DNA of 64,000 nucleotides, from the NCBI GenBank assembly GCA_032622095.1, contig CP136068.1, forward strand, positions 126,053,989-126,117,988, read 5' to 3'. The DNA is from Siphonodentalium dalli (Eukaryota; Mollusca; Scaphopoda; Gadilida; Siphonodentaliidae). The notes under the pieces were generated by a model that was given only the letters and a program-made list of their open reading frames with translations, was not told the DNA's origin and ran no database searches. Numbering within the stretch: position 1 is the stretch's first letter; every line of letters begins with the position of its first letter. Positions 11,353 to 36,059 of the stretch are shown here, one piece after another. The position numbers and the translations under genes are program-made.

Positions 11353-11751
11353 TTAACCCTTTACCCAACAGAACGGCCCTGTGCCAATGCATTCTCTTAT
11401 ATATGCGAGTCGACCATAGGTCGCCTCGCATATATAAGAGAATGCATTGGCTTAACACATTAAAAATTATAAAATTGTTAAATAATGTAAGAAAAAATGG
11501 TAAAAAGTGTTAAAAAAATATTTTTTTAGGCCAATGCATTCTCTTATATATGCGAGGCAACCTATGGTCGACTCCCATATATAAGAGAATGCATTGGCAC
11601 AGGGCATAACTGTAACTATCACAATGTGGTCAAGGAGCCGGTTCCAATGATGTCCATATTTGTATGGTTCTATTGAGACAGACCGAAGATATTTTAGGCT
11701 GTTGAAGCTTTATTTGGCCGGTTTTTGCCGTTTTGTTGGGTAAAGGGTTAA
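11353..11751. mobile_element. piggyBac-type MITE, copy 1 (full length)
   Basis: The element is flanked by TTAA and has terminal inverted repeats CCCTTTACCCAACA...TGTTGGGTAAAGGG. A TTAA target site and CCC-starting termini are hallmarks of the piggyBac superfamily. Inside are two near-identical palindromes of about 66 bp (11383-11448 and 11531-11597), each built on CCAATGCATTCTCTTATATA, separated by an AT-rich spacer with TTAACACATTAAAAATTAT. No coding sequence is present. Confidence 0.85.
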
Positions 11752-12579
11752 CAACTAAATATGAATAAATTTCTTGTCTTGACTTGTTCATACCTTTACT
11801 GACCGCGAACATGACAGGATATCTTGGCCATGCGATTCACGTAGGATATAGTGAAGAGCGTTGTGAATACCGGTGAACGTGGCATTTCGCGGTGATTCAT
11901 GGTCGTATCGAGTGAGGTCTGATAAAAAAATGTTACTACCAAGTTGTTTGCACCATAGCGCTCCCTAATCATCGCCACTCAATCGTTCGGTGTTGAGTGG
12001 GTCACAGTGAATCACTCTCCCAAAAATATTGCCACGGTGTTGGGTGTTTTGTTTATCGCACACTATTTACATACTTTATATTTGTTTGAGAGACACTTGC
12101 TCCTGGTTAACCCTATTCTATAGCGGCAAGAGTGATATCTGACAATCTCAAGTTGTTAGAACCAATATATCACGAACAGATTCGGTTAGCGATGTGCGTG
12201 CACCTGTTTATTTACATGTAGTCAGGGGGGGGGTAATAAAAAAATTGCAGGAAGGTATGCCGGGGTGGGTGGGTGTCCCGATTGGCAAAAAACGCGTTTG
12301 TTTTACAACCTCTTGCAATTTTTGTACTAAAGACCTTTTGTGCCCTTATTTGACATTTGTAACAGTTTAAAACATATTATAAGAATTAATAACTGCAAAA
12401 ACACCATATTTATGTTACTGGCACCTCACATGGGCCTTAGTGGAGATGACATTAAGCTATGGCATGTTGCATATGGGGCGGTGGGGTGTCCTTGTCGACA
12501 CCATTCGAACGAAGCTCCGAGAAATGTAAAACTGAAATAAATAAACTTGTCTTGATGTAACTAAAGCCTAGATTATTGT
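11752..12579. other. No gene seen
   Basis: Intronic sequence with a G run near 12224-12232. I see no exon with convincing flanking signals. Confidence 0.4.
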
Positions 12580-13640: not shown

Positions 13641-15918
13641 CACAATGACCTAGGTTTACAGATGATCAGCAATTTATAAAAAACATTTTTCAATTAAAAC
13701 AGCTACTGAAATATGTTAATCTATTATTTGAACTAATTGAGATCATTCCCAGTCATATGAGTGATATCAGTAGAGTTTAATGCGAATTTAGACCAATTTT
13801 AGTGAAACTTGGGGGGGGTGTGGATTTCAATTAGTGCCACAAATAAAATTATATATTGGGTAACTCCCATAAATGTATTTGTTACAATCCGTTGACAACT
13901 TCCAACGCTTTAAAGTTTCGATTTACCTTTGGTATTTTATTGAACTAATACAACTGTAATAGTAATATCTACGTATGGTATTTCTCTGCATGTCATCATA
14001 TATGATGCGGGAGAGTAACAGAGAAACGTAAAATCAGGCGACGAGACATCATGACGCCGGGCGACGAGATATATTGAGCAACACGATAAAGAAAAAAGTG
14101 ACTGGGCGCAATTAAGTCCTGTGGTGGTAGCTAAGTTAACGTCAAAGCGAGAGCAAGCTCCATCGACCAGAAGGTATGCCACAGCGTCGAAAGCATTCAC
14201 CTTGAACTAAAGTTGTGTAAAGTATCACCACGTCGCTTGATGTATACCTCCAAACTCTAAAGACAAAACATATTGATTCAACTCATTGTTTACGGAAGTG
14301 TCCACATCGTTGTAGAAGGGTATACGCTCAAAGATTTTGAAAATGAACACAATGGAAGTATTGCTGTAAACGTACATCAATAGATCCACTTTATACTGGT
14401 ACCTATTGATTTACCAACAAGATGTCGTAGCAAGTGACCACTCTATTATAAGACAGTTAGTATGAAACCTAACGCCGATCAGGCATCGTACACAAATACT
14501 CAAGTATCTTAACAAATTATTTTAATTCAAGTTGAATATTTGTCGATAAACACGCATTACCATTGACTGAGGCCGGCTAACTGTTGTGTGCCATTCACAA
14601 GCATGCAACCATGGCATCGTGTACATGTGTTTATATTTGTTCACAAGAACACGAAGATGTACAATCAGAAAGTGAACAAACGGTGGCGCAAAAGTAATCG
14701 ATTCAATTCATGAGCCAATGTCAATGACGCGCTGATTATCATGACTACATGTATTCAGTTTGTGATTTAAGTAACCCCAATGAGCATATCTAGATATTTG
14801 ATGCATATGAAGTAATGTCAACAATACCAAATAAGCTATGTACCGAAATGTTTTCGATGAAGTGCCGTCCAAGTGATTGGGCTGAGACCACCAATGCCGA
14901 AAACAGGTACCGAAATGTTGTGAAAATCAGGTGCCGAACGCCCTGCACACAAGAAGATGTTAATTGGGAAAATGTTAGATAATAATGACATCCAATCTCC
15001 AGAAAATGTCTTATCATTGCTGAATTATCAGGCCGAGAAAACTCTCACAACAAAAATGTTGGTTGATACATTATTAAAACCATTCTTTGTCATGATGCTC
15101 TACATACATGCAGAGCCAGAAGGAGATGGCTTATATATTTCTAAGCTGTTAGAAGCATGTTGCCGTATTTGTTAGCGTCTGATCATACACATTACGCAAT
15201 GTATGGGTTGTATGTACTATTAGCGGTAAATTGAAATTATCCCGCCATACTTACTTCTTGAAAGGCGAGTACGTTGTGAGACATACATGTATACCTGACA
15301 CCGGAATGGGATATGGAGGGACATGTATATCGAGACACCATGCGTTACGGGCATGGCAAATCTGGCATAATCAGAACTACGCTGAAGTCTGACGCAGTGA
15401 ATACATGAACATTGAGTTTGCATTCGGTTCATCCAAATGGTTAATGGCATCGCAAATTTACGAGAATGCCAGAAGGCGGACAGGACGCTAGTCTTCCACA
15501 AAGAGGAAGGTAAATCCATAATCATTGCTGATTCCGCTAACCTAATGGTTTGCAGACCAAACTCCAGTCTTGTATAGATCCCATGGATCCATCGGGGCAC
15601 CCAGTAACTATAGTAAGTATTGCAACGGAGGAGAATATGCCCATCGTCGGTTAATGTCCACCAGGTTGGGTATGGAGAAAATAATAGCCTTTGAACTGAA
15701 GCTTCATGCGAGAGTTGATGAACCGACTATGTCGATTACGACGAAGTCAGTACAAGTTGGTGGAAACAATGTTTAACGATAAAAACCTTATTTACACTAT
15801 AGTAATTGGGCTTTGTGTCCAGTTCGCGAGAGTTGGACATACACCAACTTATATATTATGATCTGTATCACCTCCCAACATCCCCCTTTGATGTATGTCC
15901 TTCATGTAAGAATACATT
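13641..15918. other. No gene seen
   Basis: Intronic sequence with no recognisable repeat or reliable exon. Minus-strand open frames at 13937-14200 and 15220-15600 lack supporting motifs; the first contains SRFDVNL, treated as a weak galectin-like chance match. Confidence 0.35.
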
Positions 15919-16096
15919 AACGAACGAACGAACGAACGAACGAACGAATATTTTATTATAGTGACATGTGTGTATAGTGAATACAAAACATCACATACAG
16001 GTGATAACAATGTCGAGTTACAAAATAACAACACACCCGGCCAATAAGGCCTATAAGTCACTTTAAACAAATAATAAAGAAAATTCTTGTGCACAT

Positions 16097-17140
16097 TCAT
16101 GGGATAGAAAAGGTTTTGCTAAGAAGATCTTGTCTTTTTTGATAAGCACTATAAAGAAATTTAGCTACTTGAAGGGGATACCGATTCATTAGCCGCGTAA
16201 GCAAGCAGACGTCACTAAATTGTGTCTGTCCATTTTCAATCGCGATATATGACATCAGTTTTGACCGCAAGTGTTTATATGCTCGACAGTTAAGCATAAA
16301 ATGTGTCTCATCTTCAACTTGGCTACAATCACACAGAGAACAATAGCTCTTGTCGGAATCTTCCTTATTATACCTCCCAGTCTCAATATTCAAGGGGAGA
16401 ACACCGCATCGAAATTGTGCCATAATCGATCTTTCAGCTTTGCTGATGTTAAGAGTGACATATCTTTCTAATTCGTATGTGTGTTTAAATAATATATAGG
16501 TTCTCAATTTAGGTAATTTGTTTGTATCTGCAGACCAAGTTTTCTGAAAATGTCTCTTAAGGGCTTCATGACACTCATCGAGATTACACATTCGTCTATC
16601 GTCAAATATATTATTCATGTTCAGTATCTGTGTGATTAATTTAAAGTGGGCAGCCCAACTATCTTTCTTACAGCTTAAGATGTCCCATAAAAATACTTGT
16701 TTTGTAATTCTGCCAGCGTGCATGGTCAATAAACGATTCCAGAATCTCAGCATCGAATACCACCGACGGCAATAAGGGGATGTCCATCCAACATCGCCGT
16801 TAAGTGCGGGTAGAGGGGTGTAACGACCAACTCCCAAGAAATAGCGTAAAGCACGGTGTTGAACTGTGTTAATTGAGTGGAATTGACCAAATCCCCAACC
16901 TTCACTGCAATAGTCTGTTACTGGAATAACACAGGAATTATAGAGTTTTTCATATGTTTCAATACTTATTTCTTTCAAATTATGAATTTTAGAAATTACA
17001 GCTCCGAGTGCACGCCCACCGGCTTTCGCGAGGTTCTCACAATTCGCTTTAAATGACATATGTTCATCGACGATCACTCCTAAGTATTTCAAGATTGGAA
17101 CTATGTAAATAGTTTGGTCACACAAGCTGAACACAGACAA
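16097..17140 (-). pseudogene. LINE ORF2, C-terminal region with Cys/His knuckle
   Basis: An open frame of 347 codons. Its first part (LKYLGVIVDEHMSF) is the thumb region just after the reverse transcriptase catalytic core, followed by a long helical region. Around residues 270-300 it has C-x2-C-x7-ETHF-x4-C, a putative zinc knuckle common at the end of LINE ORF2 proteins. The frame ends with TAA at 16097-16099, followed by about 150 bp of 3' UTR. It is separated from the reverse transcriptase core by a frameshift near 17100-17140, so the element is inactive. Confidence 0.85.
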
Positions 17141-18434
17141 GCTCCGAGAGTACGTTGTGGTTTCCGAAAATGGATAACCTTCGTTTTACTAGAGTTTAAA
17201 TTACTGCACCATAAGGTAATCACGTCAAAAAGTAATTGTAAATCATGCTCATTTTCTGCTATTAGTGCAATATCATCAGCATATAGTAATACAGAAATAT
17301 TCCTAGATCCAATGCTCACTCCAATGTCGAGGGTATTCAATTCAGAGGCAAGATCATTTATGTATAAGTTAAACAGAGTAGGGGACATATACTCACCCTG
17401 GCGAACCCCCTCAGAACAGTTAAACCATTCGGTATAATTATCGCCGAGCTTTACGCGTGCTTCAGTGTCCGAGTATAAAGATTCTATAGATCGAAATATT
17501 TTTCCACAGATCCCCGCTGATAGAAGCCTATATTTTAAGAGATCACGATCGACCATATCAAAGGCTTTACTTAGGTCTACGAAGCCGACAAACGTGGAAC
17601 GCCTATTTTTAACCAGAGATGTGAGCACATATACATGTTCAGCGCACGACCGTCCTCGACGGAAACCATTTTGTTCATCAACTAGAGTATCATTGTCGTC
17701 AAAATATGTAACTAAACGGGTATTTAAAATAGAGCTGTAAATTTTACCGATTGTAAGCTTATACCACGATAATTTAATGGAATAGCAGGATCTGACATAC
17801 TGTCTTTGAGAATAGGACATATTATAGATCTACACCACATTTTGGGCACTTTGCCAGAATCGAAGCATGTTTGCATCAGTTTATGAATCAGGTTCGCAGC
17901 ATAATCATTTTTTAGAACTTCCATGGGGATTTCGTCATAACCTGTCGCTTTACCTAATTTGGCCCCTTTAATAGCATCCAGGACTTCCTCAATACCTATG
18001 TCATTATTTAAAACGTTATTAGTAGGATTTTCTAAAAACATACCATCCGAATCAATCAATTCAAGAATAGAATCTTTGAAATCATCATCAAACGTATTGA
18101 GTACATCTATGTTATATAATTGTTCAAATTCCGCTCTCCATAACTCGAGCACACTGTCGCGATTAGTTGTTACGGATCCATCAGGTAGATAACATTTCAT
18201 TGGTGGACCTTTGGTTCGTTTAGGGCCCAATCGCTCAAGTTCCCGCCAAAAATCTTTAGGATTATTTTTCAAAGATGAGTTCAAATTAAATGAAAGTGTT
18301 TTTCTATACTGTCTTTCATAAAATCGTAATTTCTTATCTAGCATGTTTCTAGCATCCCTATACAACTCACGCGTTTGACGTTTCATACGATTGTTGCCGA
18401 CTACTTTTCTATACACCTTCTCTTTATTTCGCAT
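17101..18434 (-). pseudogene. LINE reverse transcriptase domain (two frames)
   Basis: The N-terminal half (18434-17724) includes KATGYDEIPMEVLKN and LNYRGISLQS, the early reverse transcriptase blocks. The second half (17820-17101) has the GFRRGRSCAEH block, FVDLSKAFD with a catalytic Asp, EGVRQGEYMSPTLFNLYIND, and the YADD catalytic box. A frameshift near 17724-17820 separates them. All catalytic residues expected for a polymerase are visible, so the inactivation is recent or modest. Its role would be target-primed reverse transcription. Confidence 0.9.
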
Positions 18435-19125
18435 ATCTTTCCATATTTGTGAAAGCTCCTCATTCCAAAACGGTTTGTGGGTTCGGTGAAGGTTCGCGAC
18501 TTAGAGGAGCAGTCATATACTGGTATCTTACTGGTCATTTCCCGTTTCACTAATCCACACAAATCATCATATATACTATCTATATTAACTTGTTGAGATG
18601 CGTCGATTCTGTCAATCGCGGCCCTTAATTCAGACTGGAATTTATTATTCGCCATAAATGTCAGAGGAATTTCACTGAGTTTGAAGCGTTTGTGTTGCTT
18701 TAAGGGAACTGCATCCGATTGATTCATTACAAGGGAAGTCGTATATTCCGTTATATAGTCAAACATTATAATTGCGTGGTCCGGTACCTTACTTCTGAAA
18801 CCAAGTAACGACTGTAACCGATATTCCTCAATTATACTTTCACATTCAACAATACGAAAATTTCTACAACAAGTCAATTGTTCATGAGGAACACACACAT
18901 AATCAACAACTGACTCCCCTTTACATGACCTAAATGTGAACTGATTTGAAGCTGTACCGTATCGACCGTTAAGCATAACTGTGCGACTGTCATTCAAAAA
19001 TTCAAGGAAGGTTTGGCCATGTTGATTTGTTGTATTGTCAATATGAAGGCGTGGTCTAACATTGTCAACCACATGATTACAATCTAATCCCGCCCAGCAC
19101 GTGCGTTAAAGTCTCCGCAAACATT
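18401..19125 (-). pseudogene. LINE AP endonuclease, C-terminal part only
   Basis: The frame opens just downstream of a GDFNAR block, a conserved endonuclease motif, which is one frameshift away at about 19085-19105. It contains GRYGTASNQFTFRS and SVVDYVC, matching the S-x-x-D-Y-V block, and PDHAIIMFD, matching the S/P-D-H block. The N-terminal half of the endonuclease is missing, so the copy is truncated at the 5' end. Another frameshift near 18470 separates this piece from the reverse transcriptase frame. Confidence 0.85.
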
Positions 19126-23097: not shown

Positions 23098-23423
23098 TTA
23101 ACCCTTTACCCAACAGAACGGCCCTGTGCCAATGCATTCTCTTATATGTGCGAGTCGACCATAGGTCGCCTCGCATATATAAGAGAATGCATTGGCTTAA
23201 CACATTAAAAATTATAAAATTGTTAAAGAATGTATGAAAAAATGGTAAAAAGTGTTAAAAATGCATTGGCACAGGGCATAACTGTAATTATCACAATGTG
23301 GTCAAGGAGCCGGTTCCAATGATATCCATATTTGTATGGTTTTATTGAGACAGACCCAAGATAATTTAGGCTGTTGCAGCTTTATTTGGCCGTTTTTGGC
23401 CGGTTTGTTGGGTAAAGGGTTAA
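23098..23423. mobile_element. piggyBac-type MITE, copy 2 (one internal palindrome lost)
   Basis: TTAA-flanked, with CCCTTTACCCAACA...TGTTGGGTAAAGGG termini. It keeps the first internal palindrome (CCAATGCATTCTCTTATATG...) and the AT-rich spacer but has lost most of the second palindrome, which is why it is about 75 bp shorter than the other copies. Confidence 0.85.
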
Positions 23424-25842: not shown

Positions 25843-26209
25843 TTAACCCTTTACCCAACAAAACGGCCAAAACCGGCCAAATAAAGCTTCAACAGCCTAA
25901 AATATCTTCGGTCTGTCTCAATAGAACCATACAAATATGGATAGCATTGGAACCGGCTCCTTGACCACATTGTGATAGTTACAGTTATGCCCTGTGCCAA
26001 TGCATTCTCTTATATATGCGAGTCGACCATAGGTCGCCTCGCATATATAAGAGAATGCACTTTTTACCATTTTTTCTTACATTCTTTAACAATTTTATAA
26101 TTTTTAATGTGTTAAGCCAATGCATTCTCTTATATATGCGAGGCGACCTATGGTCGACTCGCATATATAAGAGAATGCATTGGCACAGGGCCGTTCTGTT
26201 GGGTAAAGG
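25843..26209. mobile_element. piggyBac-type MITE, copy 3, interrupted by the Maverick element
   Basis: It begins TTAACCCTTTACCCAACA in the opposite orientation to copies 1 and 2, carries two internal palindromes (26013-26057 trimmed, 26117-26183), and would end GGGTAAAGGGTTAA. The last bases are split: GGGTAAAGG ends at 26209, and TAAAGG plus GTTAA continue at 33799-33809. The virus-like element jumped into this terminal repeat, so the MITE is older. Confidence 0.9.
26204..26209. repeat. Target-site duplication TAAAGG, left
   Basis: TAAAGG directly precedes the left terminus AGTAGTATG. The same six bases follow the right terminus at 33799-33804. A 6-bp duplication is the usual length for Maverick/Polinton integration. 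Confidence 0.9.
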
Positions 26210-26836
26210 AGTAGTATGTGTGTCTCGTTAGATCCACATCTAAAAATAGATTTTTTGGGTCTAAAATTGTTTGTACTAAAATATTCCCAAAAAGAAAATT
26301 CAAAACCCAAAATTTATTTTTCAAAATTTTCAAAAAAAAAAATTTTAATCTCAAAAATTTATAATGAGTTTTCGGTTTCGGATAATCTCGGTATTAAATT
26401 TTTTTAAATTATTTGAGTGTAATATGTTTCGTTATTTTTGTTCAACCAAATTTTAAATATTTTTCATGAAATAGCTTTATACCAATTATATGTGTATGGA
26501 CAGGTCCGAGTCGCTGTAATTTTGGACATTGTGACCATCGGTATGAATGCATACATTCCAGTGTTTATCAATCAGACGCAGTCCATGCATCATATAATTG
26601 TCATACCTGAAATAATTTGACACCATTACTCTTACATGAATAATAAAGAGCGTTTATTCTTTACTTCTCTATCCGGATGAAGTTATTGAGTATATGACAG
26701 GTGTGTATTATCGCGAATTATTGGAAGTATTGAGATGTACTATGTTGAATCATGAGCGGACGAAGAGGGTAATGTGAAATTACAACCCCAGAATGAACTG
26801 ACATATTCGATGGAACAAATTTTCAAGTATGTACAC
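26210..26836 (+). repeat. Left terminal inverted repeat
   Basis: Pairs with 33189-33798 over about 610 bp with small insertions and substitutions. One difference is a TAAAGAGCG motif (26644-26652) present only on this side. The inner end is at GTACAC, just before the arms diverge. Confidence 0.9.
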
Positions 26837-27526
26837 GCCACATTGGTGGTAACAATGTCGAAAAGAGTCGCACCTTGGTTTACCAAATGACTTCTATTAT
26901 ATCCCGTTGACAGTTATATGTGGTCCGACTCGTTCAATTATCGATATCTTGTCTGAACAACATTAGTTGTTTAACGGGTTATTATCACGTAAGGTTGATA
27001 AACTGTGTCATTAACGCGATAATTAGTTATCCAAAAAAATATGCATACATAATACGTACAGGTCATGAGACACTCAATAATTGAAGTTACTTCGGTGTCA
27101 TTGTTATAACAACCTTACGTAATAACCACTTATCTCCCCACATTCATACTTACGCTCATAGATATTTGTATACCATAACTCCATAACATAGTTGGCACCC
27201 ATGAGGCAACATTATATGACTGTTATTGTATCATATTACAGCTATGAGTGTTTCTACTCGTTTGACATTAGCTCCCCATCGCGTATGAAACTCTGATAAT
27301 TTTATTAATCGATGTGTTTAGAAATAGCTCTATACTAATTGCATGTGTGTAGCTGTTCATTATTCTCGAAAAAATGTCAGAGTGTTCAGACACGTTCGAT
27401 GTTTAGAAATAGTTTTATACCAATTGTAAAATGTGCAGGTGTTCACATTTGATTTTAGGTATTTATTCGCGAAAAAATATATATATTTTCATAACATATA
27501 AGTCATACTATCGACAACATACAAAA
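26837..27526. promoter_or_regulatory. Left non-coding region of the element, with TATAAG box
   Basis: Between the repeat and the first gene lies an inverted pair, GGTTATTATCACGTAAGGTTG (about 26979) and CAACCTTACGTAATAACC (27110-27127), which could fold into a 130-base hairpin. A TATAAG box at 27497-27502 lies 30 bp before the first ATG of the acidic protein. AT-rich otherwise, no open frame of note. Confidence 0.45.
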
Positions 27527-27940
27527 ATGCTGCTGGAAACTATATTCAAATATTTATGTTTAGGCCTAACCTCGGTGTGGCCATGTCTAAGTGATCAACA
27601 TGAGTCTGAACATGAGAACGATACTGGTGAGGCTGTACCCATGTTGGTTATACATGAAAACGATACTGTTGAGGCTGTACCCATTTTGGATATCAATCAA
27701 GATGAAGACAATGACCCTGATGACGGAGACTCTGGCCAGGGGTCAATATCATCAGACAGTTATTATCGGGACGTGGAGGCGGACTATTGGACCACCAGTT
27801 CACAGTCGTCGTGGACTGATTCCGAGTCAATCACAGACTGTTATTGCGAACGTCCCGAAGATTGGGAACGTGAACTGGAGTTGGATGCCGAATATGGATA
27901 TCTCATGGATAGCGGATATTCATCAGAAGAAAATGTCTGA
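27527..27940 (+). CDS. Acidic protein of the Maverick-type element
   Basis: I chose the ATG at 27527 because a TATAAG box lies 30 bp upstream and the 32 codons before it are low in quality. The product is about 137 aa: a short hydrophobic N-terminus (residues 1-18), an imperfect internal repeat HENDTGEAVPMLV / HENDTVEAVPILD, then a long Asp/Glu/Ser-rich tail ending SGYSSEENV. I do not recognise a family. Acidic Ser-rich tails of this type are common in DNA-mimic or chromatin-interacting proteins, but that is only a resemblance. Confidence 0.6.
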   Translation: MLLETIFKYLCLGLTSVWPCLSDQHESEHENDTGEAVPMLVIHENDTVEAVPILDINQDEDNDPDDGDSGQGSISSDSYYRDVEADYWTTSSQSSWTDSESITDCYCERPEDWERELELDAEYGYLMDSGYSSEENV

Positions 27941-28485
27941 CTGTGACTGGTAGCTTTAGTAACGCTGTTGTTGTTTGAATTGTATAATGTTATATTGTTT
28001 TTGTTTATGTAATCAATAATAAATATATGTATAATATAATTTTCAAAATAATATTTCCCTGGGTTCTATCGTGGTTCTATCTTTTACAAGAGATTTTGTT
28101 CACTCAATCACAGACCAACGTGATAATACCCGCCCGCCCCCCACCCCATCATCCACCAACCACCTTCACATCACTTACCAGCACCAATGATGTTATAAGA
28201 ACTGTAGGTTTTTATAATATTATAGGTTGCAGTGTCATCCTGGTAATTCGTTTACAACAGTTTTTTACGTGTCTCTGAACATTAGAAGGATCCTCTGTAT
28301 CTTCACCGAAGATATTCGTTCCGGCCATAGCCTATTAAACCTACACGTTCTCTTCCATCAACATTATCAGACCACACTTTCGACCCATATAAAGCTGCTC
28401 TACACACGCCTTCCATAACAAATGTTTACTTATGATGTATATAAGAACTGTATAGCTACTAATAAATAGGACACAGTGAACAAAA
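27941..28485. promoter_or_regulatory. Spacer before the ATPase gene, with TATAAG box
   Basis: A polyadenylation-like AATAAATATATG lies near 28017, then a C-rich tract (28125-28160). TATAAG at 28440-28445 is 41 bp before the ATPase ATG, the usual place for a TATA box. No good gene is seen between. Confidence 0.5.
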
Positions 28486-29151
28486 ATGGGGTCAACTAAC
28501 CATAGCGCCATACCATTTGAACCTTGTTCTAGTATTTGCATCAATGGACCAACTGGTTCTGGTAAGACGAGATGGGTCTACAGATTCCTACAAAATCTTA
28601 GTGGAATGTATTCTAGAGATCCACCTAAGAAAATAATGTACTGTTACGGTATTTATCAAAATTTCTATGATGAAATTGAATCATCAATCGAAAATTTGGT
28701 CATGCATCAAGGATTACCTACCCAAACAGAAATCGAAGAATTTGCTGATGGTAAACATAATATGTTAATATTAGACGACTTGATGCATCGTATTATTGAC
28801 CAAAAAGAGATTGAATTACTATTTACGCAGCAAACTCATCATCGCTGTCTTTCGGTGCTATTTATTTCACAAAATTTATACGCACAAGGCAAGGCTGCGA
28901 GAACTATAGCCTTAAACACAGGATATCTAATTTTATTCAAAAATTTGAGGGATGGATCACAAATTTCCACATTGGGTAGACAATTGTATCCCGGTAAATC
29001 TAAAGTACTCATTGATGCATACAAGGATTGTATGAAGAAACCATTTGCGTATCTTATAATAGATATGTCCCCTCACACTGAGGATAAATACAGACTACGA
29101 ACAGACGTATTTCCCAACCAAGACCCTATAATTTACGTACCTACTACGTAA
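28486..29151 (+). CDS. FtsK/HerA-superfamily packaging ATPase (A32-like)
   Basis: The 221-aa product has a textbook Walker A GPTGSGKT at residues 21-28, the segment KIMYCYG at 49-55, Walker B LILDDLM at 94-100, an HHR motif at 118-120 and a sensor-like SQN at 128-130. The order and spacing fit the virion genome-packaging ATPases of Maverick/adintovirus-type elements and relatives, which pump DNA into preformed capsids. The frame is intact from an ATG with a TATA box upstream to a double stop (TAATAA). It is complete compared with family members of about 200-250 aa. Because the element has no visible capsid gene, the enzyme may act on capsids supplied by a helper or have another job. Confidence 0.85.
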   Translation: MGSTNHSAIPFEPCSSICINGPTGSGKTRWVYRFLQNLSGMYSRDPPKKIMYCYGIYQNFYDEIESSIENLVMHQGLPTQTEIEEFADGKHNMLILDDLMHRIIDQKEIELLFTQQTHHRCLSVLFISQNLYAQGKAARTIALNTGYLILFKNLRDGSQISTLGRQLYPGKSKVLIDAYKDCMKKPFAYLIIDMSPHTEDKYRLRTDVFPNQDPIIYVPTT

Positions 29152-29190
29152 TAAGAAGGGGCAGTATCGGAGCTGAGTCGCGACGATAAA

Positions 29191-29379
29191 ATGAGTCGAT
29201 TATTACGTAAGGAGTTGAATTTTGTCAGAATATTGACATCAACCCAATCAAGATCTCAACGAAACGCATTATTGACATCGATAACTAATAATCAGTTGAT
29301 ATTTCTAGTCGAAATTACGGTCAATTTACTACATGAAATTTTAACAGTTACAGTTCAACAAAAAGCTAAATTACGGTGA
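29191..29379 (+). CDS. Small basic protein, often next to this ATPase type
   Basis: 62 aa, starting 39 bp after the ATPase stop, with no separate TATA box, so it may share the ATPase transcript. It contains SRSQRNALLTSITNNQLIFL and ends in a basic VQQKAKLR. Small proteins with an RKALL..IT..Q pattern and a basic tail are, from memory, regular neighbours of this ATPase in invertebrate virus-like elements. Their role is unknown to me; a core or DNA-binding protein is possible. Related proteins often run longer, so this may be C-terminally truncated. A 46-bp piece of it is duplicated at 30761-30806. Confidence 0.6.
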   Translation: MSRLLRKELNFVRILTSTQSRSQRNALLTSITNNQLIFLVEITVNLLHEILTVTVQQKAKLR

Positions 29380-29510
29380 TATAAATCATTTTATATATTC
29401 TTGGGTGATAAATCTGTGAGCTTGTTGAGGAAAAGAAAAAGTGTGAATAATCACTCACCCGCCATTGCTTTGATGTTGAACATCGTTGAACCTAAATTGA
29501 AACAGTTTTT

Positions 29511-29894
29511 GTGATGGAGTCTGTGAAGAAAACTGTTTTGATCCCGTATGAAAGATATATGATGTACACAGAAAAAAGTGAACACAAAAAAGTTTCATCG
29601 GAGCCTAATATTGAACACAGCGACATCTCGGCAAACAATAGTAGCCATTCCGATGAAATGAATAAAGAAAAGGACCCGATGAATAATCAGATTGTTAATA
29701 CAGTTCAAGCGACTGAACCTCAGGAGGCAATCGAAAAATCAGGAGTTAACACATCTAATAATACATCGAAAAAGACACACACTAGGCAAAGAAAAAAGAA
29801 AATAAGTGAGATTAAGCGTGAAATATCTAGACCTCCAGGTATAATCGCCAGTAGGCTGACTAATATAAAGAAGAAACGTTGGATATCACTGTGA
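29511..29894 (+). CDS. VLIPYERY-type protein of the element
   Basis: 127 aa; the ATG at 29514 is an equally possible start. It begins with KKTVLIPYERYMMY, has a polar, low-complexity middle rich in Glu, Asn and Ser (about 25-85), a Lys/Arg-rich stretch near residues 90-105 and a tail ending PPG..ASRLTN..KKRWISL. From memory, proteins with this N- and C-terminal pattern accompany the packaging ATPase in related elements. The function is unknown. The basic stretch could bind nucleic acid or be a nuclear localisation signal. Confidence 0.6.
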   Translation: MMESVKKTVLIPYERYMMYTEKSEHKKVSSEPNIEHSDISANNSSHSDEMNKEKDPMNNQIVNTVQATEPQEAIEKSGVNTSNNTSKKTHTRQRKKKISEIKREISRPPGIIASRLTNIKKKRWISL

Positions 29895-30169
29895 ACAATA
29901 TGGCCGATTGGAAAGATTATTTGAGCTCTATTTATTTTAATCCGGGTCACCCCGCATCGTACTCAGGAGCTACAAAGTTGCATCAGACTGTAAAATCTGA
30001 AAATAAGCACATCATTTCCAAATAGTAATGCGATAGCGAACATCAAACGAGTCTGCGCACGCATATCTGTCAAAGGATACAATAGCAGTCATTGGTCAAT
30101 TTATCCACGGTGTCATCTCAGTATATAGGTGCATAGAAGAACGCTCGATTTCACTGATTATATAGGAAA
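29895..30169. other. Short spacer in the element
   Basis: No gene seen. TATATAGG-like boxes near 30121 and 30160 could serve the next frame. Confidence 0.4.
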
Positions 30170-30751
30170 ATGAAGTATCAATCTGAAGAGTGCTCAAGTG
30201 TCTATGCTTGGCAAGATAGTTTGAAACGTCATATCAAAGTTAAACAAAAGCCTTCAGAACAACAACAACAACAGTATCATCAGCCACAACAACAACAACA
30301 ACAACACTCATTTGCTCATTTTTTTGCTCATTTGCTCATTTTTTTTTGCTCATTTGCTCATTTTGTTTGCTCATTTGCTCATTTTGTTTGCTCATTTGCT
30401 CATTTTTTTTGCTCATTTGCTCATTTGTTTTGCTCATTTGCTCATTTTTGTGTGCTCATTTGCTCATTTTTTTGCTCATTTGCTAATTTTTTTTGCTCAT
30501 TTGCTCATTTCTTTTGCTCATTTGCTCATTGTTTTGCTCATTTTTTTGGCTCATTTGCTCATTGTTTTGCTCATTTGCTCATTTGTTTGCTCATTTTCTC
30601 ATTTTTTTGCTCATTTTTTTGCTCATTTGCTCATTTTTTTGCTCATTTGCTCATTTTTTTGCTCATTTGCTCATTTTGTTTTGCTCATTTGCTCTTTTTC
30701 TCACCCCCTTTGAATATACTTTGTGTGATATTCTGTGTCATTGTTAATTGA
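30170..30751 (+). pseudogene. Degenerate C2H2 start running into poly-Q and a minisatellite
   Basis: The N-terminus looks like a decayed C2H2 zinc finger: Ser5-x2-Cys8-x12-His21-x3-Lys25, so the second Cys and first His keep the exact spacing while the outer two ligands are lost, and SLKRH is typical. It then has two Gln runs (residues 34-38 and 43-48) and from residue 50 an alternating SFAHF/LLICS pattern. This pattern is a by-product of a TTTGCTCAT repeat at 30305-30700 that happens to be open in three frames. I read it as the 5' remnant of a zinc-finger protein whose body was replaced by repeat expansion. A real membrane protein is unlikely. Confidence 0.55.
30305..30700 (+). repeat. Minisatellite (TTTGCTCAT)n
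   Basis: About forty copies of TTTGCTCAT or GCTCATTT-type units separated by variable T runs. The array lies inside the virus-like element and stays free of stops in all three plus frames because the core word contains none. Confidence 0.95.
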
Positions 30752-30760
30752 TTGGTGCAT

Positions 30761-30806
30761 ACTCAATCAATATCTCAACGAAACGCATTATTGACATCGA
30801 TAACTA
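30761..30806 (+). repeat. Duplicated 46-bp piece of the small basic gene
   Basis: Almost identical to 29241-29288 (ATCTCAACGAAACGCATTAT then TGACATCGATAACTA). It is a direct repeat 1.5 kb away and interrupts no frame. It suggests a template-switch or unequal-exchange event, perhaps tied to loss of genes from this place. Confidence 0.85.
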
Positions 30807-30864
30807 TCATGGTGCATTTGGCATTCATGGCCAGACAAATTTAATTCATGGATTTTAGAGTCTG

Positions 30865-31335
30865 ATGTCGCCAGATATCAAAATTAATAAGAGTAAGTTG
30901 TACACGAGAACAATTACAATCATGGATAATAGAACAAGTACCTTGGCGAATACGTTTCAAACAGAACGTGGTCGTCTACAGGTGAATCTCCTTAAATGGA
31001 TAGGAATTACTATTATGGTAATCAGTGTGTCACTACCATTTATTTTAGTTCCAAAGAAGATACCGCGTGAGTCGGTTGACTATGAATTACTTCATACTAA
31101 TATGTCACACCCCAATGATTACGAACAACACCCGTGTGTTTTCGTGAAAAAGTGGACAATACGATCAAACATTACTGTTACATTATGTAATAATCAAGGA
31201 CACATTTATACAGACATTAGGCGAGTTGTGAATAACACTCCGACGATTATAGGTATTCCGTTAAATTTGAACCAGTGGTCAATCTTCAAGCATATATTCA
31301 GTGATATCAATAAAACTATAAGAGAAGAAGAATAA
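30865..31335 (+). CDS. PC4-like domain protein with one membrane segment
   Basis: 156 aa from 30865; the ATG at 30922 (residue 20) is a good alternative start. Residues 45-62 (WIGITIMVISVSLPFILV) form a clear hydrophobic membrane segment followed by KK. Residues 103-153 match the PC4/p15 single-stranded-DNA-binding fold: V-T-L..GHIYTDIRRV, then GIPLNLNQWSIFKHIFSDI, against the family's G-x-x-Y-V-D-I-R-E and G-I-S-L-x-x-x-Q-W pattern. PC4 proteins bind unpaired DNA during transcription and replication. A membrane anchor before it is unusual; in known PC4 proteins this position is Ser- or Lys-rich. The frame is intact. Confidence 0.65.
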   Translation: MSPDIKINKSKLYTRTITIMDNRTSTLANTFQTERGRLQVNLLKWIGITIMVISVSLPFILVPKKIPRESVDYELLHTNMSHPNDYEQHPCVFVKKWTIRSNITVTLCNNQGHIYTDIRRVVNNTPTIIGIPLNLNQWSIFKHIFSDINKTIREEE

Positions 31336-31515
31336 TGATTCTCTTTGAATTGTTTTATTTTAGAAACTATAGTCATATGGATAATTATTATCTGTACCTG
31401 ACTAGCGACGATTCGATTAATAAATATCCAGATAATCGATTTTTATAAGAGGCGATAAACTTTCTAAAATAAAATGCAGAAAAAAGAGTGACTTGTACAC
31501 TACATTTGAAGAAAC
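31336..31515. promoter_or_regulatory. Promoter region with TATAAG box
   Basis: TATAAGAGG at 31444-31452 is 72 bp before the ATG at 31516. A short upstream ATG at 31474 opens only five codons. Confidence 0.5.
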
Positions 31516-31839
31516 ATGTCGATCCCGTATATTCCAGCAGATATTGAAACGTGGAGAAAACATTTCAGAGACATGCTTGATGGGAAGTTAATACCAGATA
31601 ATAAGGGTCGATACTTTATTGACAGAACTAAAAATAGTGATAGTGAAGAAGACGTTCTAAAACCACATATTAACGTAGTGACGCCCATCGCTCAAGCGAT
31701 TGAAATGGCTAAGGCCGAAGTTGCAGCAAATAAGTTGACAAACACACGTAAAGCGTCCAAACAAACCAACAAGAGAGTGTTAGCTGGAGGTTTGTCTAAT
31801 AATAAGAAGAAAATGGAAAGAAAAGTGTCATACGATTAG
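31516..31839 (+). CDS. Small protein with MSIPYIPADIETWRKHF start
   Basis: 107 aa. The N-terminus (residues 1-25) has an aromatic IETWRKHFRDM helix; the middle has VTPIAQAIEMAKAEV, also helical; the C-terminus (80-107) is strongly basic (Lys/Arg) and ends KKKMERKVSYD. I recall proteins with this WxxHF start and basic tail as companions of the ATPase in invertebrate virus-like elements, without known function. A minor structural or DNA-associated role is conceivable. Confidence 0.6.
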   Translation: MSIPYIPADIETWRKHFRDMLDGKLIPDNKGRYFIDRTKNSDSEEDVLKPHINVVTPIAQAIEMAKAEVAANKLTNTRKASKQTNKRVLAGGLSNNKKKMERKVSYD

Positions 31840-32108
31840 CCAAATCATGAATGAATACATAGAGTACCATACTGATAAATTGGCATTAATTGAATCACCG
31901 GCGGTCAAATATCTATACCCTAGCCCCGGGACGAACGTACTCTTAACGCGACGGTAGTATACCACACCTTATTCTCTCTTTTTATCGATACTTATAAGAG
32001 TGATCGTTCTTCCAATAATTCGCGTTAATGCACGGGTGACATTTATGCGGAATTATTTTATCGACGAACTACAATCTACAAAGACATAAACAGATTAAAC
32101 ACGGAGTT
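31840..32108. promoter_or_regulatory. Promoter region with TATAAG box
   Basis: TATAAGAGTG at 31993-32002 lies 116 bp before the ATG at 32109. No open frame of note. Confidence 0.45.
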
Positions 32109-32603
32109 ATGTCCGAGACAAAAACAACTCTCTTCGGAGAAGATACCGATGACCTAGAATATGACGAAGCGGTTCTAGATTCAGATGAAGATGAACGGGG
32201 AACGATATCAGATTCAGAAGATGATAATGTCGTCGGTAGTAGAACGGTATTCGGTCTTAAGAAATCTGCGCGATGTGTCAACGAGATGGACACATTCAAA
32301 AGTATGATGAAACGCGTCACCAGTGATGCGAAAGGAGAAGAGAGCATGTCGGGAGATGAGAGCATGTCGGGAAAAGAGGCTACCATCGACACAGAGTTTG
32401 CTCTGTTTCTCAAAAGTTATAGACGATTAATAGAATACCAGTATCGATTGAAAACATCACCCATACATAACATGATCATGAAGAAAATGGTCAAACTGAC
32501 CAAACACGGATATAATAATGAATGGGCTGCAGATGAAGCGATGAGAAAATTCAAGAAACTCTTAGAAATAAATCTAACGGTCGAAGATTCAGACAATGAT
32601 TAA
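32109..32603 (+). CDS. Acidic-start, helical protein of the element
   Basis: 164 aa. Residues 1-45 are very acidic (DDLEYDEAVLDSDEDERG); a repeated SMSGDE/SMSGKE lies around 79-90; the C-terminal half (95-160) is a Lys/Arg-rich, probably helical segment including LKSYRRLIEYQYRLK and ending VEDSDND. No family recognised. The frame is clean and has a TATAAG box upstream, so I accept it as a gene. Confidence 0.6.
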   Translation: MSETKTTLFGEDTDDLEYDEAVLDSDEDERGTISDSEDDNVVGSRTVFGLKKSARCVNEMDTFKSMMKRVTSDAKGEESMSGDESMSGKEATIDTEFALFLKSYRRLIEYQYRLKTSPIHNMIMKKMVKLTKHGYNNEWAADEAMRKFKKLLEINLTVEDSDND

Positions 32604-33188
32604 ATTTCAATAAACTTCATCAACATGTTATTCTCGTCTTCGTTATATTTATAAGTGGGGAGGGGAGATTGTAGAGCGAGAAACGATACATAAATGGTAC
32701 ATTACGAGCCCTAAAATTTGAAGTTTAAATATTGTTCTGTGTCTTTTTAACTTTCAGCCACTGCGTGTGTATTGTGTTTCTTTAACAATCATTCAAAATG
32801 AGTGCCGTGTGTCCCTTTAGAGCGCATTGTGCTCCTTTAATATTCACACACCAATATTACATAACGTCCCTTACCTCGTGTCACTTTAACATTCCACACC
32901 GTGCGTGTATTATCCCCCTTTAATTATGTCATAGCGTTGGTACATAGAAGACTGTATAACACTATGCCTATGTCTATATATGTTGTCACATCGTGAGTGT
33001 ATTGTCCACCATTATATTGAAAATTTTGAAATTTTTGAAATTTTTGAAATTTTAGAATTTTTTGAAAGTTTTGAAAGTTTTTGAAATTTTTGAAATTTTT
33101 GAAGTTTTGGAAAGTTTTGAAATATTTGAAGTTTTTGAAATTTTGGAAGTTTTGGAAGTTTTTGAAATTTTTTGGTGATTATGTGTGT
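32604..33188. repeat. Right non-coding region of the element with simple repeats
   Basis: TATAAG at 32650-32655 has no gene after it, so a gene may have been lost. From about 32735 to 32930 a loose 45-55-bp unit repeats GTGTC.CTTTAA / GTGCTCCTTTAAT / GTCACTTTAAC / CCCCTTTAATT. From 33025 to 33175 comes a purine-rich run of GAAATTTTTGAAATTTT-type units. Neither is coding. Confidence 0.75.
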
Positions 33189-33798
33189 GTGTACCTACTT
33201 GAAAATTTGTTCCATCGAATATGTCAGTTCATTCTGGGGTTGTAATTTCGCATTACCCTCTTCGTCCGCTCATGATTCAACATAGTACATCTCAATACTT
33301 CCAATAATTCGCGATAATACACACCTGTCATATACTCAATAACTTCATCGTGATAGAGAAGTAAAGAATAAACATGTAAGAGTAATGGTGTCAAATTATT
33401 TCAGGTATGACAATTATATGATGTATGGGTTGTGTCTGATTGATAAACACTGGAATGTATGCATTCATACCGATGGTCACAATGTCCAAAATTACAGCGA
33501 CTCGGACTTGTCCATACACATATAATTGGTATAAAGCTATTTAAAATATTTAAAATTTGGTTGAACAAAAATAACAAAACATATTACACTCAAATAATTT
33601 AAAAAATTTTAATACCGAGATTATCCGAAACCGAAAACTCATTATAAATTTTTTAGATTAAAACTTTTTTTTTTGAAAATTTTGAGAAAAAATTTTTTGG
33701 GTTTTGAATTTTTTTTTTTGGGAATATTTTAGTACAAACAATTTTAGACCCAAAAAATCTATTTTTAGATGTGGATCTAACGAGACACACATACTACT
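33189..33798 (-). repeat. Right terminal inverted repeat
   Basis: Reverse complement of 26210-26836 with scattered differences. It ends CGAGACACACATACTACT at 33798. Confidence 0.9.
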
Positions 33799-33804
33799 TA
33801 AAGG
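33799..33804. repeat. Target-site duplication TAAAGG, right
   Basis: Second copy of the six bases at 26204-26209. It is followed by GTTAA, the rest of the interrupted MITE terminus, which ends at 33809. Confidence 0.9.
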
Positions 33805-33809
33805 GTTAA

Positions 33810-35497: not shown

Positions 35498-35897
35498 TTA
35501 ACCCTTTACACAACAGAAGGGCCCTGTGCCAATGCATTCTCTTAAATATGCGAGTCGACCATAGGTCGCCTTGCATATAAAAGAGAATGCATTGGCTTAA
35601 CACATTAAAAATTATAAAATTGTTAAAGAATGTAAGAAAAAATGGTAAAAAGTGTTAAAAAAAGATTTGTTTTAGGCCAATGCATTCTCTTATATATGCG
35701 AGGCGACCTATGGCCGACTCGCATATATAAGAGAATGCATTGGCACAGGGCATAACTGTAATTATCACAATGTGGTCAAGGAGCCGGTTCCAATGATATC
35801 CATATTTGTATGGTTCTATTGAGACAGACCGAAGATATTTTAGGCTGTTGAAGCTTTATTTGGCCGGTTTTGGCCGTTTTGTTGGGTAAAGGGTTAA
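35498..35897. mobile_element. piggyBac-type MITE, copy 4 (full length)
   Basis: TTAA-flanked with CCCTTTACACAACA...TGTTGGGTAAAGGG ends, two internal palindromes and the AT spacer, in the orientation of copies 1 and 2. It lies in intron 1, whereas copies 1 to 3 lie in intron 2. Confidence 0.85.
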
Positions 35898-36059
35898 CGC
35901 TGCTGCTAAGTTATCAGTGTTGTGTGAGTTTTAAGAGGACTTAATGTGGGAGTGCATTCATGTATAGTGGTCATCTTGTCATGGAAGCAAATGGTATTAC
36001 AATTGCAGTGTTGTAAATTGTCGCCTATTGTGCACATTTAACGAGTTATAAATTAACAT

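Follow-up and report, generated by a model that had tools for sequence, protein, structure and literature searches.

How does a transposable element come to have complete ends and a packaging ATPase gene, while no complete polymerase, integrase or capsid gene is recognisable inside it? The question is raised by a 7,589-bp element at positions 26210–33798 of a 64-kb stretch (hereafter the window: GCA_032622095.1, contig CP136068.1, positions 126,053,989–126,117,988) of the genome of the scaphopod mollusc Siphonodentalium dalli. An original prediction, made from the letters alone, had taken it for a Maverick-type satellite that borrows a helper's capsid and enzymes and brings its own packaging pump. 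As far as tested, it is instead very probably a one-off non-autonomous Polinton (Maverick), recombined from two sources with related ends, whose ATPase is incidental. Its features are listed in window coordinates, for some genes with the counterpart in a longer relative, L030.

25843–26209, last bases at 33799–33809, no strand: TTAA-flanked miniature inverted-repeat transposable element (MITE), split by the element
26204–26209, no strand: left target-site duplication (TSD), TAAAGG
26210–26836, plus strand: left terminal inverted repeat (TIR), 627 bp, starting AGTAGT
27431–27940, plus strand: gene A, acidic protein of 169 amino acids (aa) without Pfam family; 187 aa in L030
28486–29151, plus strand: A32/FtsK-type packaging ATPase, 221 aa, Walker A and B intact
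29191–29379, plus strand: gene C, truncated to 62 aa; 107 aa in L030
29514–29894, plus strand: gene D, 126 aa, also in L030
29900–30025, plus strand: integrase stub of 41 codons; the L030 counterpart is a 369-aa open reading frame (ORF) with rve and chromo domains
30021–30022, no strand: junction 1, where the left-end segment meets a defective right-end module
30170–30751, plus strand: ORF with a weak zinc-finger remnant followed by a tandem array (30307–30703)
30865–31335, plus strand: putative PC4-like protein with N-terminal hydrophobic helix; 165 aa in L030
31377–31448, plus strand: 23-codon stub of a gene of 145 aa in L030; junction 2 at 31438
31516–31839, plus strand: gene E, 107 aa
32109–32603, plus strand: gene F, 164 aa; 190–191 aa with a weak C2H2 match in most short relatives
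33189–33798, minus strand: right TIR, 610 bp, finishing ACTACT
33799–33804, no strand: right TSD, TAAAGG

Comparison with L030, a 9-kb stretch of the longer relative (read to 9 kb, with protein-primed DNA polymerase B (PolB) and the right end beyond it), carries this reading, and it is only through L030 that the integrase stub and the second-gene stub are recognisable. L030 comprises, in order, the TIR, A, the ATPase, C, D, the integrase (rve E-value 2e-13, chromo 4e-6), the PC4-like gene, the 145-aa gene, E, a 241-aa gene and a weak protease candidate (Peptidase_C5, E-value 0.04). The window tracks L030 up to 30021, within the integrase gene, and then diverges; further right it lacks 267 bp of L030 at 31438, leaving the 23-codon stub, and homology to L030 ends near 31905. 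When the host genome (a 2.23-Gb assembly of nine contigs) was searched with 29300–31350, scoring the best 40 candidates as in all DNA queries of this genome, none of the 39 other scored candidates spanned the 30021 junction, and every listed match outside the element began at 30020 or later. In contrast, both rightward breaks were crossed uninterrupted in 17 of 20 fetched stretches, several with their own TSDs, and the right-module structure therefore predates this insertion or is independent of it. In the left part, full-length relatives show 87–92% identity and others reach 98–99% from 28295 on; the right-module region is matched by 47 other near-full rows at 97–99%. As judged from these alignments, the element is a composite in which the left end of a longer element adjoins a right-end module that is itself repeated and had already undergone deletion.

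The borders are certain, because the element interrupts a MITE of which three other copies in the window show the uninterrupted site. Insertion occurred at the right end of this ~370-bp, TTAA-flanked MITE; the other copies (11358–11761, 23103–23423 and 35503–35898) keep an uninterrupted GGGTAAAGGGTTAA end and serve as empty sites. The element tips are (AGT)2, i.e. AGTAGT...ACTACT, and the two TIRs align with 592 of 607 ungapped positions identical (15 mismatches, five gaps). Repeat length, TSD and empty sites rule out a chance inverted repeat. The element is inverted only in its TIRs, its halves not being inverted copies of one arm. The MITE family itself is TTAA-flanked with internal hairpins and has four copies in the window, one of them containing the Polinton; a 37-bp piece of the TIR (33298–33334) recurs at 81% at 32009–32045, ahead of gene F.

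As to coding content, the plus strand holds nine of the ten longest interior ORFs (83–221 aa), of which the 117-aa one overlaps gene A in a different frame. Among 200 dinucleotide shuffles, the longest ORF had a median of 91, a 95th percentile of 135 and a maximum of 172 aa; singly, only the 221-aa ATPase and the 193-aa repeat-rich ORF lie beyond every shuffle, and at least six ORFs of at least 100 aa occurred in none of the 200. Of the hallmarks of Polintons, we found long TIRs with the (AGT)2 motif, the 6-bp TSD and the packaging ATPase. Scanning the interior against Pfam in all six frames (X at each stop) revealed no match to polymerase (including PolB), integrase, protease or capsid, Pfam possibly being without a model for some Polinton capsid proteins; the DDE integrase is represented by the 41-codon stub only, and hidden remnants of polymerase or capsid genes were rejected on the same scan. 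For capsid proteins, the longest ORF (221 aa) is presumably too short for a double jelly-roll protein; structures were predicted for the ATPase and the PC4-like protein only, so that a small single jelly-roll among the others could have gone unnoticed.

The original prediction is thus borne out in its account of a complete element with TIRs and a TAAAGG duplication (7,589 bp, the near-identical TIRs, the empty sites). It had further described a whole unit rather than a fragment, devoid of polymerase, integrase and capsid; the unit is whole as integrated, but "not a fragment" misleads for what is an internally deleted recombinant with gene stubs, and the lack of Pfam matches agrees with the second statement, to which the integrase stub is a correction. 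Its packaging ATPase was confirmed as an A32/FtsK-type protein with intact Walker motifs, 505 relatives at an E-value of at most 1e-3 and packaging-ATPase fold matches. Informative organism names among these relatives are the bivalve Pinctada imbricata and a bivalve symbiont record (Solemya velum). Pox_A32 scores 15.5 bits on the protein, under the Pfam cut-off of 22.8, and a profile of the ATPase gave only weak matches to solved structures. The structural model (predicted local distance difference test (pLDDT) 91) has adenovirus IVa2 as its best BFVD match, and A32-like and adintovirus ATPases also rank among the first ten. Against PDB, an archaeal-virus packaging NTPase ranks second and the rest are mostly KaiC and RecA-type ATPases. 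These fold matches to poxvirus A32, adenovirus IVa2 and adintovirus FtsK-like ATPases come with low sequence identity, however (11–17% to the ten best BFVD matches). In a tree of 118 rows (four of 122 lacking a recognised P-loop were left out), the window ATPase falls outside the flagged long branches and in no supported group.

How could such a recombinant arise? The left 3.8 kb (TIR, A, ATPase, C, D and 41 integrase codons) would derive from the left end of a longer Polinton, to which it is homologous, with a switch at 30021 into a right-end module of zinc-finger remnant, PC4-like gene, E, F and TIR. The recombinant may have formed in a pool of replicating linear DNA, where template switching would make the 30021 junction, or by ectopic repair. 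Relatives with polymerase and integrase would then have replicated and integrated it in trans, giving the TAAAGG duplication, and the ATPase would have travelled as a passenger. Ends of the (AGT)2//(ACT)2 type and a 6-bp TSD are shared with vertebrate Mavericks, as reported in PMC8097293; TIRs of hundreds of base pairs, an A32-type ATPase and the start of an integrase are likewise Polinton traits. The element differs from a Polinton in its length (7.6 kb vs. about 17 kb) and in that no PolB, protease or capsid was found and the integrase is a stub.

The best surviving alternative, although unlikely, is decay in place: the insertion was that of a full-length Polinton, and deletion and overwriting by ectopic gene conversion from related families followed within the chromosome. 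The 15 differences between the TIRs over 607 positions would suit this history, as would the mosaic identity, with left relatives at 87–92% and others at 98–99% from 28295 on, and multi-copy families make conversion easy. What argues against it is that the right module occurs with both rightward breaks in 17 of 20 stretches, several with TSDs of their own.

The recombinant reading calls for relatives able to act in trans, and candidates were found. Querying the genome with the TIR (best 40 of 2,287 candidates scored, 94–100% identity) returned, besides the window element, plus-then-minus TIR pairs at ten spacings of 4.8–9.2 kb, three of 16–17 kb and one of 42 kb. The ATPase protein query gave places 96–100% identical to it (best 150 of 2,933 candidates), seven of the 150 with a stop by eye. 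PolB yielded 149 matches at 69 scored places (of 1,596 candidates); most sit in open frames ~950 or ~1,312 codons long. Forty-one of the 69 PolB places have a scored ATPase place within 20 kb, on the opposite strand in 40, of which 36 lie 8–10.5 kb away; Polintons that combine PolB with an ATPase much like this one are thus common, the ATPases near PolB places being 96–99% identical to that of the window. The three 16–17-kb pairs have TIRs at 94–97%, and two of them contain a scored ATPase place. Among the scored PolB places and TIR pairs, no helper was found that combines intact PolB with exactly the window element's ends; the PolB–ATPase copy at C3:147033433/147042050 matches the element only at 81%, just inside the left TIR. 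The two PolB frame-length classes are an observation of their own and suggest two Polinton lineages in one genome. Elsewhere, L004 and L005 (G000:C7:203318760 and 203328499) are same-orientation ends 9.7 kb apart that share one inner structure, possibly a tandem or duplicated mini-element.

With such candidate helpers at hand, the satellite of the original prediction has to be weighed, i.e. a 7.6-kb unit that propagates as a lineage, borrows polymerase, integrase and capsid from a helper and supplies an ATPase kept by selection. We consider it more doubtful than decay in place. Its ATPase is intact and has a packaging fold, termini and TSD are clean, the PolB–ATPase places are candidate helpers, and a separate palindromic lineage carries an A32-type ATPase; but the 30021 junction recurs in none of the 39 other scored candidates, not even half of the window ATPase gene is present in any of the 20 fetched stretches with short copies, and the element has deleted-gene stubs, a truncated C and an F whose frame ends early at an upstream stop (in short relatives, 190–191 aa is the length of 21 of the 29 F frames listed). 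Genes E and F are, moreover, near-neutral in the short copies. After exclusion of copies with frameshifting indels (six of 28 for F, one of 28 for E), the ratio of non-synonymous to synonymous polymorphism (pN/pS) was 1.2 for E and 1.0 for F, and shared variants (13 non-synonymous to 3 synonymous in E, 8 to 2 in F) are as site numbers predict, from which both genes appear to evolve near neutrality. Given the failure to find a sister copy, the truncation of C and the early end of F, the window ATPase is not visibly kept for a purpose, and an intact ATPase frame after about 2% divergence would be unsurprising. Of the predicted satellite with its own pump, non-autonomy and candidate helpers stand, whereas no lineage with its gene set was found: the proposed TIR search of the genome did return short copies with clean TSDs and the three 16–17-kb pairs, but none with the window gene set among those scored, and a satellite lineage was rejected for want of a sister copy among scored candidates and fetched stretches. 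The outcome that had been named as refuting, a one-off internal deletion among relatives all of 15–20 kb, applies to the 30021 junction as far as tested; that all related copies are of this size is false.

Several observations weigh against a chance recombinant with an incidental ATPase. The ATPase is intact and deviates at one of 25 columns invariant in 28 other aligned sequences, as a selected gene would; the changes between window and L030 ATPases (three synonymous, five non-synonymous) are too few to decide. Singletons in F (11 non-synonymous, five synonymous) stand at 0.55 of neutral and lean to constraint, although the short copies show no sign of strong constraint on either E or F. A diverged second copy of the junction could escape a search of the best 40 candidates. 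As to helpers, the three 16–17-kb TIR pairs enclose none of the 69 scored PolB places (by eye), and in two of these copies the PolB-like frames opposite the ATPase stop early, after 496 and 610 codons. These two frames are 94% identical to each other, and Pfam and PHROGs gave no convincing family on the frames opposite the ATPase; the DFET nearby, which we take to be the PolB exonuclease motif, is the sole basis for calling them PolB-like.

The right-end module that the recombinant would have acquired recurs in many further copies, frequently in the form of palindromic mini-elements. Short copies with the window element's ends and clean TSDs propagate. We examined all ten TIR pairs below 10 kb besides the window among the 40 best-scoring TIRs (L010–L019), and L020–L029, which were picked for inverted E–F pairs or high score and are not a random sample. 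Of the ten pairs, eight (L010, L011 and L013–L018) have inverted arms of at least 1.5 kb and eight a perfect 6-bp TSD; across fifteen short copies (the ten pairs plus five partly chosen for inverted E–F pairs), the counts are 12 with arms of ~1.5 kb or more and 13 with a perfect TSD. The palindromic set comprises these eight with L020, L021, L024 and L028, 11 of the 12 with a perfect TSD (that of L018, whose end was set short, was not judged), while L012 (TSD matching at five of six bases), L019 and L029 fall short of that arm length. Arms cover nearly the whole element in L010, L015, L018 and L020. Arm identity across the palindromic copies is 93–100% per 500-bp bin, with most bins at 97–100%, so that arms within an element agree better than different elements do (e.g. 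both E genes of L022 are 97.2% identical to that of the window). Among 48 near-full E–F rows there are 15 close pairs, all head to head.

Long-read chimeras can create false palindromes, yet assembly or hairpin-read artefacts are a most improbable source of these copies, given matching 6-bp duplications at both borders in 13 of 15, arms that are not quite identical and several different centres.

A snap-back step would account for them: once a displaced strand had folded onto itself and been copied, the resulting linear molecule would have one and the same origin at its two ends, and its insertion by the integrase would leave a palindrome with clean ends and a 6-bp TSD. Protein-primed replicons of the adenovirus type yield palindromic defective genomes. 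Racquet or panhandle intermediates have been suggested for invertron plasmids (PMC1864894). The resemblance is that arms repeat one parental end, placing the same terminus at both ends; unlike those molecules, the copies fetched here are chromosomal insertions with 6-bp TSDs. For Maverick end repeats themselves, PMC8097293 gives a presumed role in the jumping-back step of protein-primed replication. The same paper puts defective copies at 96% of vertebrate Mavericks, describes these as decayed fossils and states that Maverick virus particles are unobserved despite encoded capsid homologues; in S. dalli, by contrast, short forms recur with intact ends and TSDs, many of them palindromic. Near-identical-arm palindromes with clean TSDs are what a linear, strand-displacing, end-primed replicon could leave, and the short palindromic relatives thereby hint at how Maverick-type elements copy their DNA. 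If so, the replication mode of Polintons would become testable from genome sequence, and Polintons may, like free viruses, spawn defective or satellite forms. Our literature search met no title or abstract start describing palindromic Polintons, its coverage of subscription journals being thin.

One palindromic lineage carries an ATPase of its own. L015 (G000:C5:175449005-175458250; 9.2 kb, arms 99.1% identical, TSD AGTGTA) has in one arm a 482-aa frame in which an A32-type ATPase (Pox_A32, 1.8e-6) is fused to a weakly scoring C2H2 domain, and in the other a 223-aa frame of the ATPase part. This ATPase is 33% identical to that of the window over 196 residues, and the C-terminus of the fusion resembles gene F by eye only. 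When the fusion protein was used as query, the best 88 of 4,672 candidates were scored, 20 of which have a stop (by eye); the gene is thus very numerous. Thirteen close pairs were seen, all head to head, and no scored PolB (69) or ATPase place (150) was seen within 20 kb of any of the 88. The palindromic setting with the window element's ends was checked for L015 among the 88. In L015 and 14 of the 88 places, all chosen without stops, pN/pS was 0.59 for the whole gene, with 0.41 for its ATPase part and 0.76 for the remainder, and shared variants in the ATPase part comprise five synonymous and five non-synonymous (P about 0.04, uncorrected). These signs of selection are marginal and perhaps inherited from a longer, unseen source; for this lineage, a pump-carrying satellite is a possible reading. 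If the palindromes are confirmed, the ATPase-bearing short form would offer a test case for that idea. A joint reading, which we put forward as tentative, possible rather than probable, would see a large class of palindromic mini-Polintons, formed by snap-back during protein-primed replication, inserted with 6-bp TSDs and amplified in trans. Within this class, one satellite lineage would encode in its arms the A32-type ATPase joined to a zinc-finger/F-like domain and borrow polymerase, integrase and capsid from full-length Polintons, the window element being a chance recombinant between the two kinds.

Returning to the small proteins of the window, the product of 30865–31335 looks PC4-like, at low confidence, from three weak but agreeing signals: a Pfam E-value of 0.046, PDB sequence matches at E-values of 1.4–1.7, and a predicted model (pLDDT 52) whose 11 best PDB fold matches are all PC4/Sub1, none at an E-value of 0.001 or below. 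The prediction had proposed modelling the small proteins in search of a cryptic capsid fold; the one modelled gave this low-confidence PC4-like result, and a capsid fold in it was rejected on the same 11 matches. On a distant contig, L001 (CALIZB010000044.1), a relative of the ATPase (52% identity) is accompanied by a clear PC4 domain (E-value 2.5e-8) and a gene C relative whose score was reached by none of 1,000 shuffles; the PC4 proteins of window and L001 gave no significant alignment with each other. L001 is binned as a Bacteroidia genome yet holds an animal-type Polinton fragment (ATPase, PC4 and the gene C relative), and its presence in a bacterial bin is probably contamination.

Database searches found no homologues of genes E and D. 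Nothing informative came from tRNA and Rfam scans, from viral contigs searched by ATPase protein, alignment, TIR pattern and gene C relative, or from phage and plasmid records. Within the element, a 46-bp piece of gene C (29242–29287) is repeated at 96% in the right module (30761–30806), and this second copy recurs in other short elements. Elsewhere in the window, a broken non-LTR (long terminal repeat) retrotransposon occupies 15220–19105 on the minus strand (RVT_1, E-value 6.8e-26).

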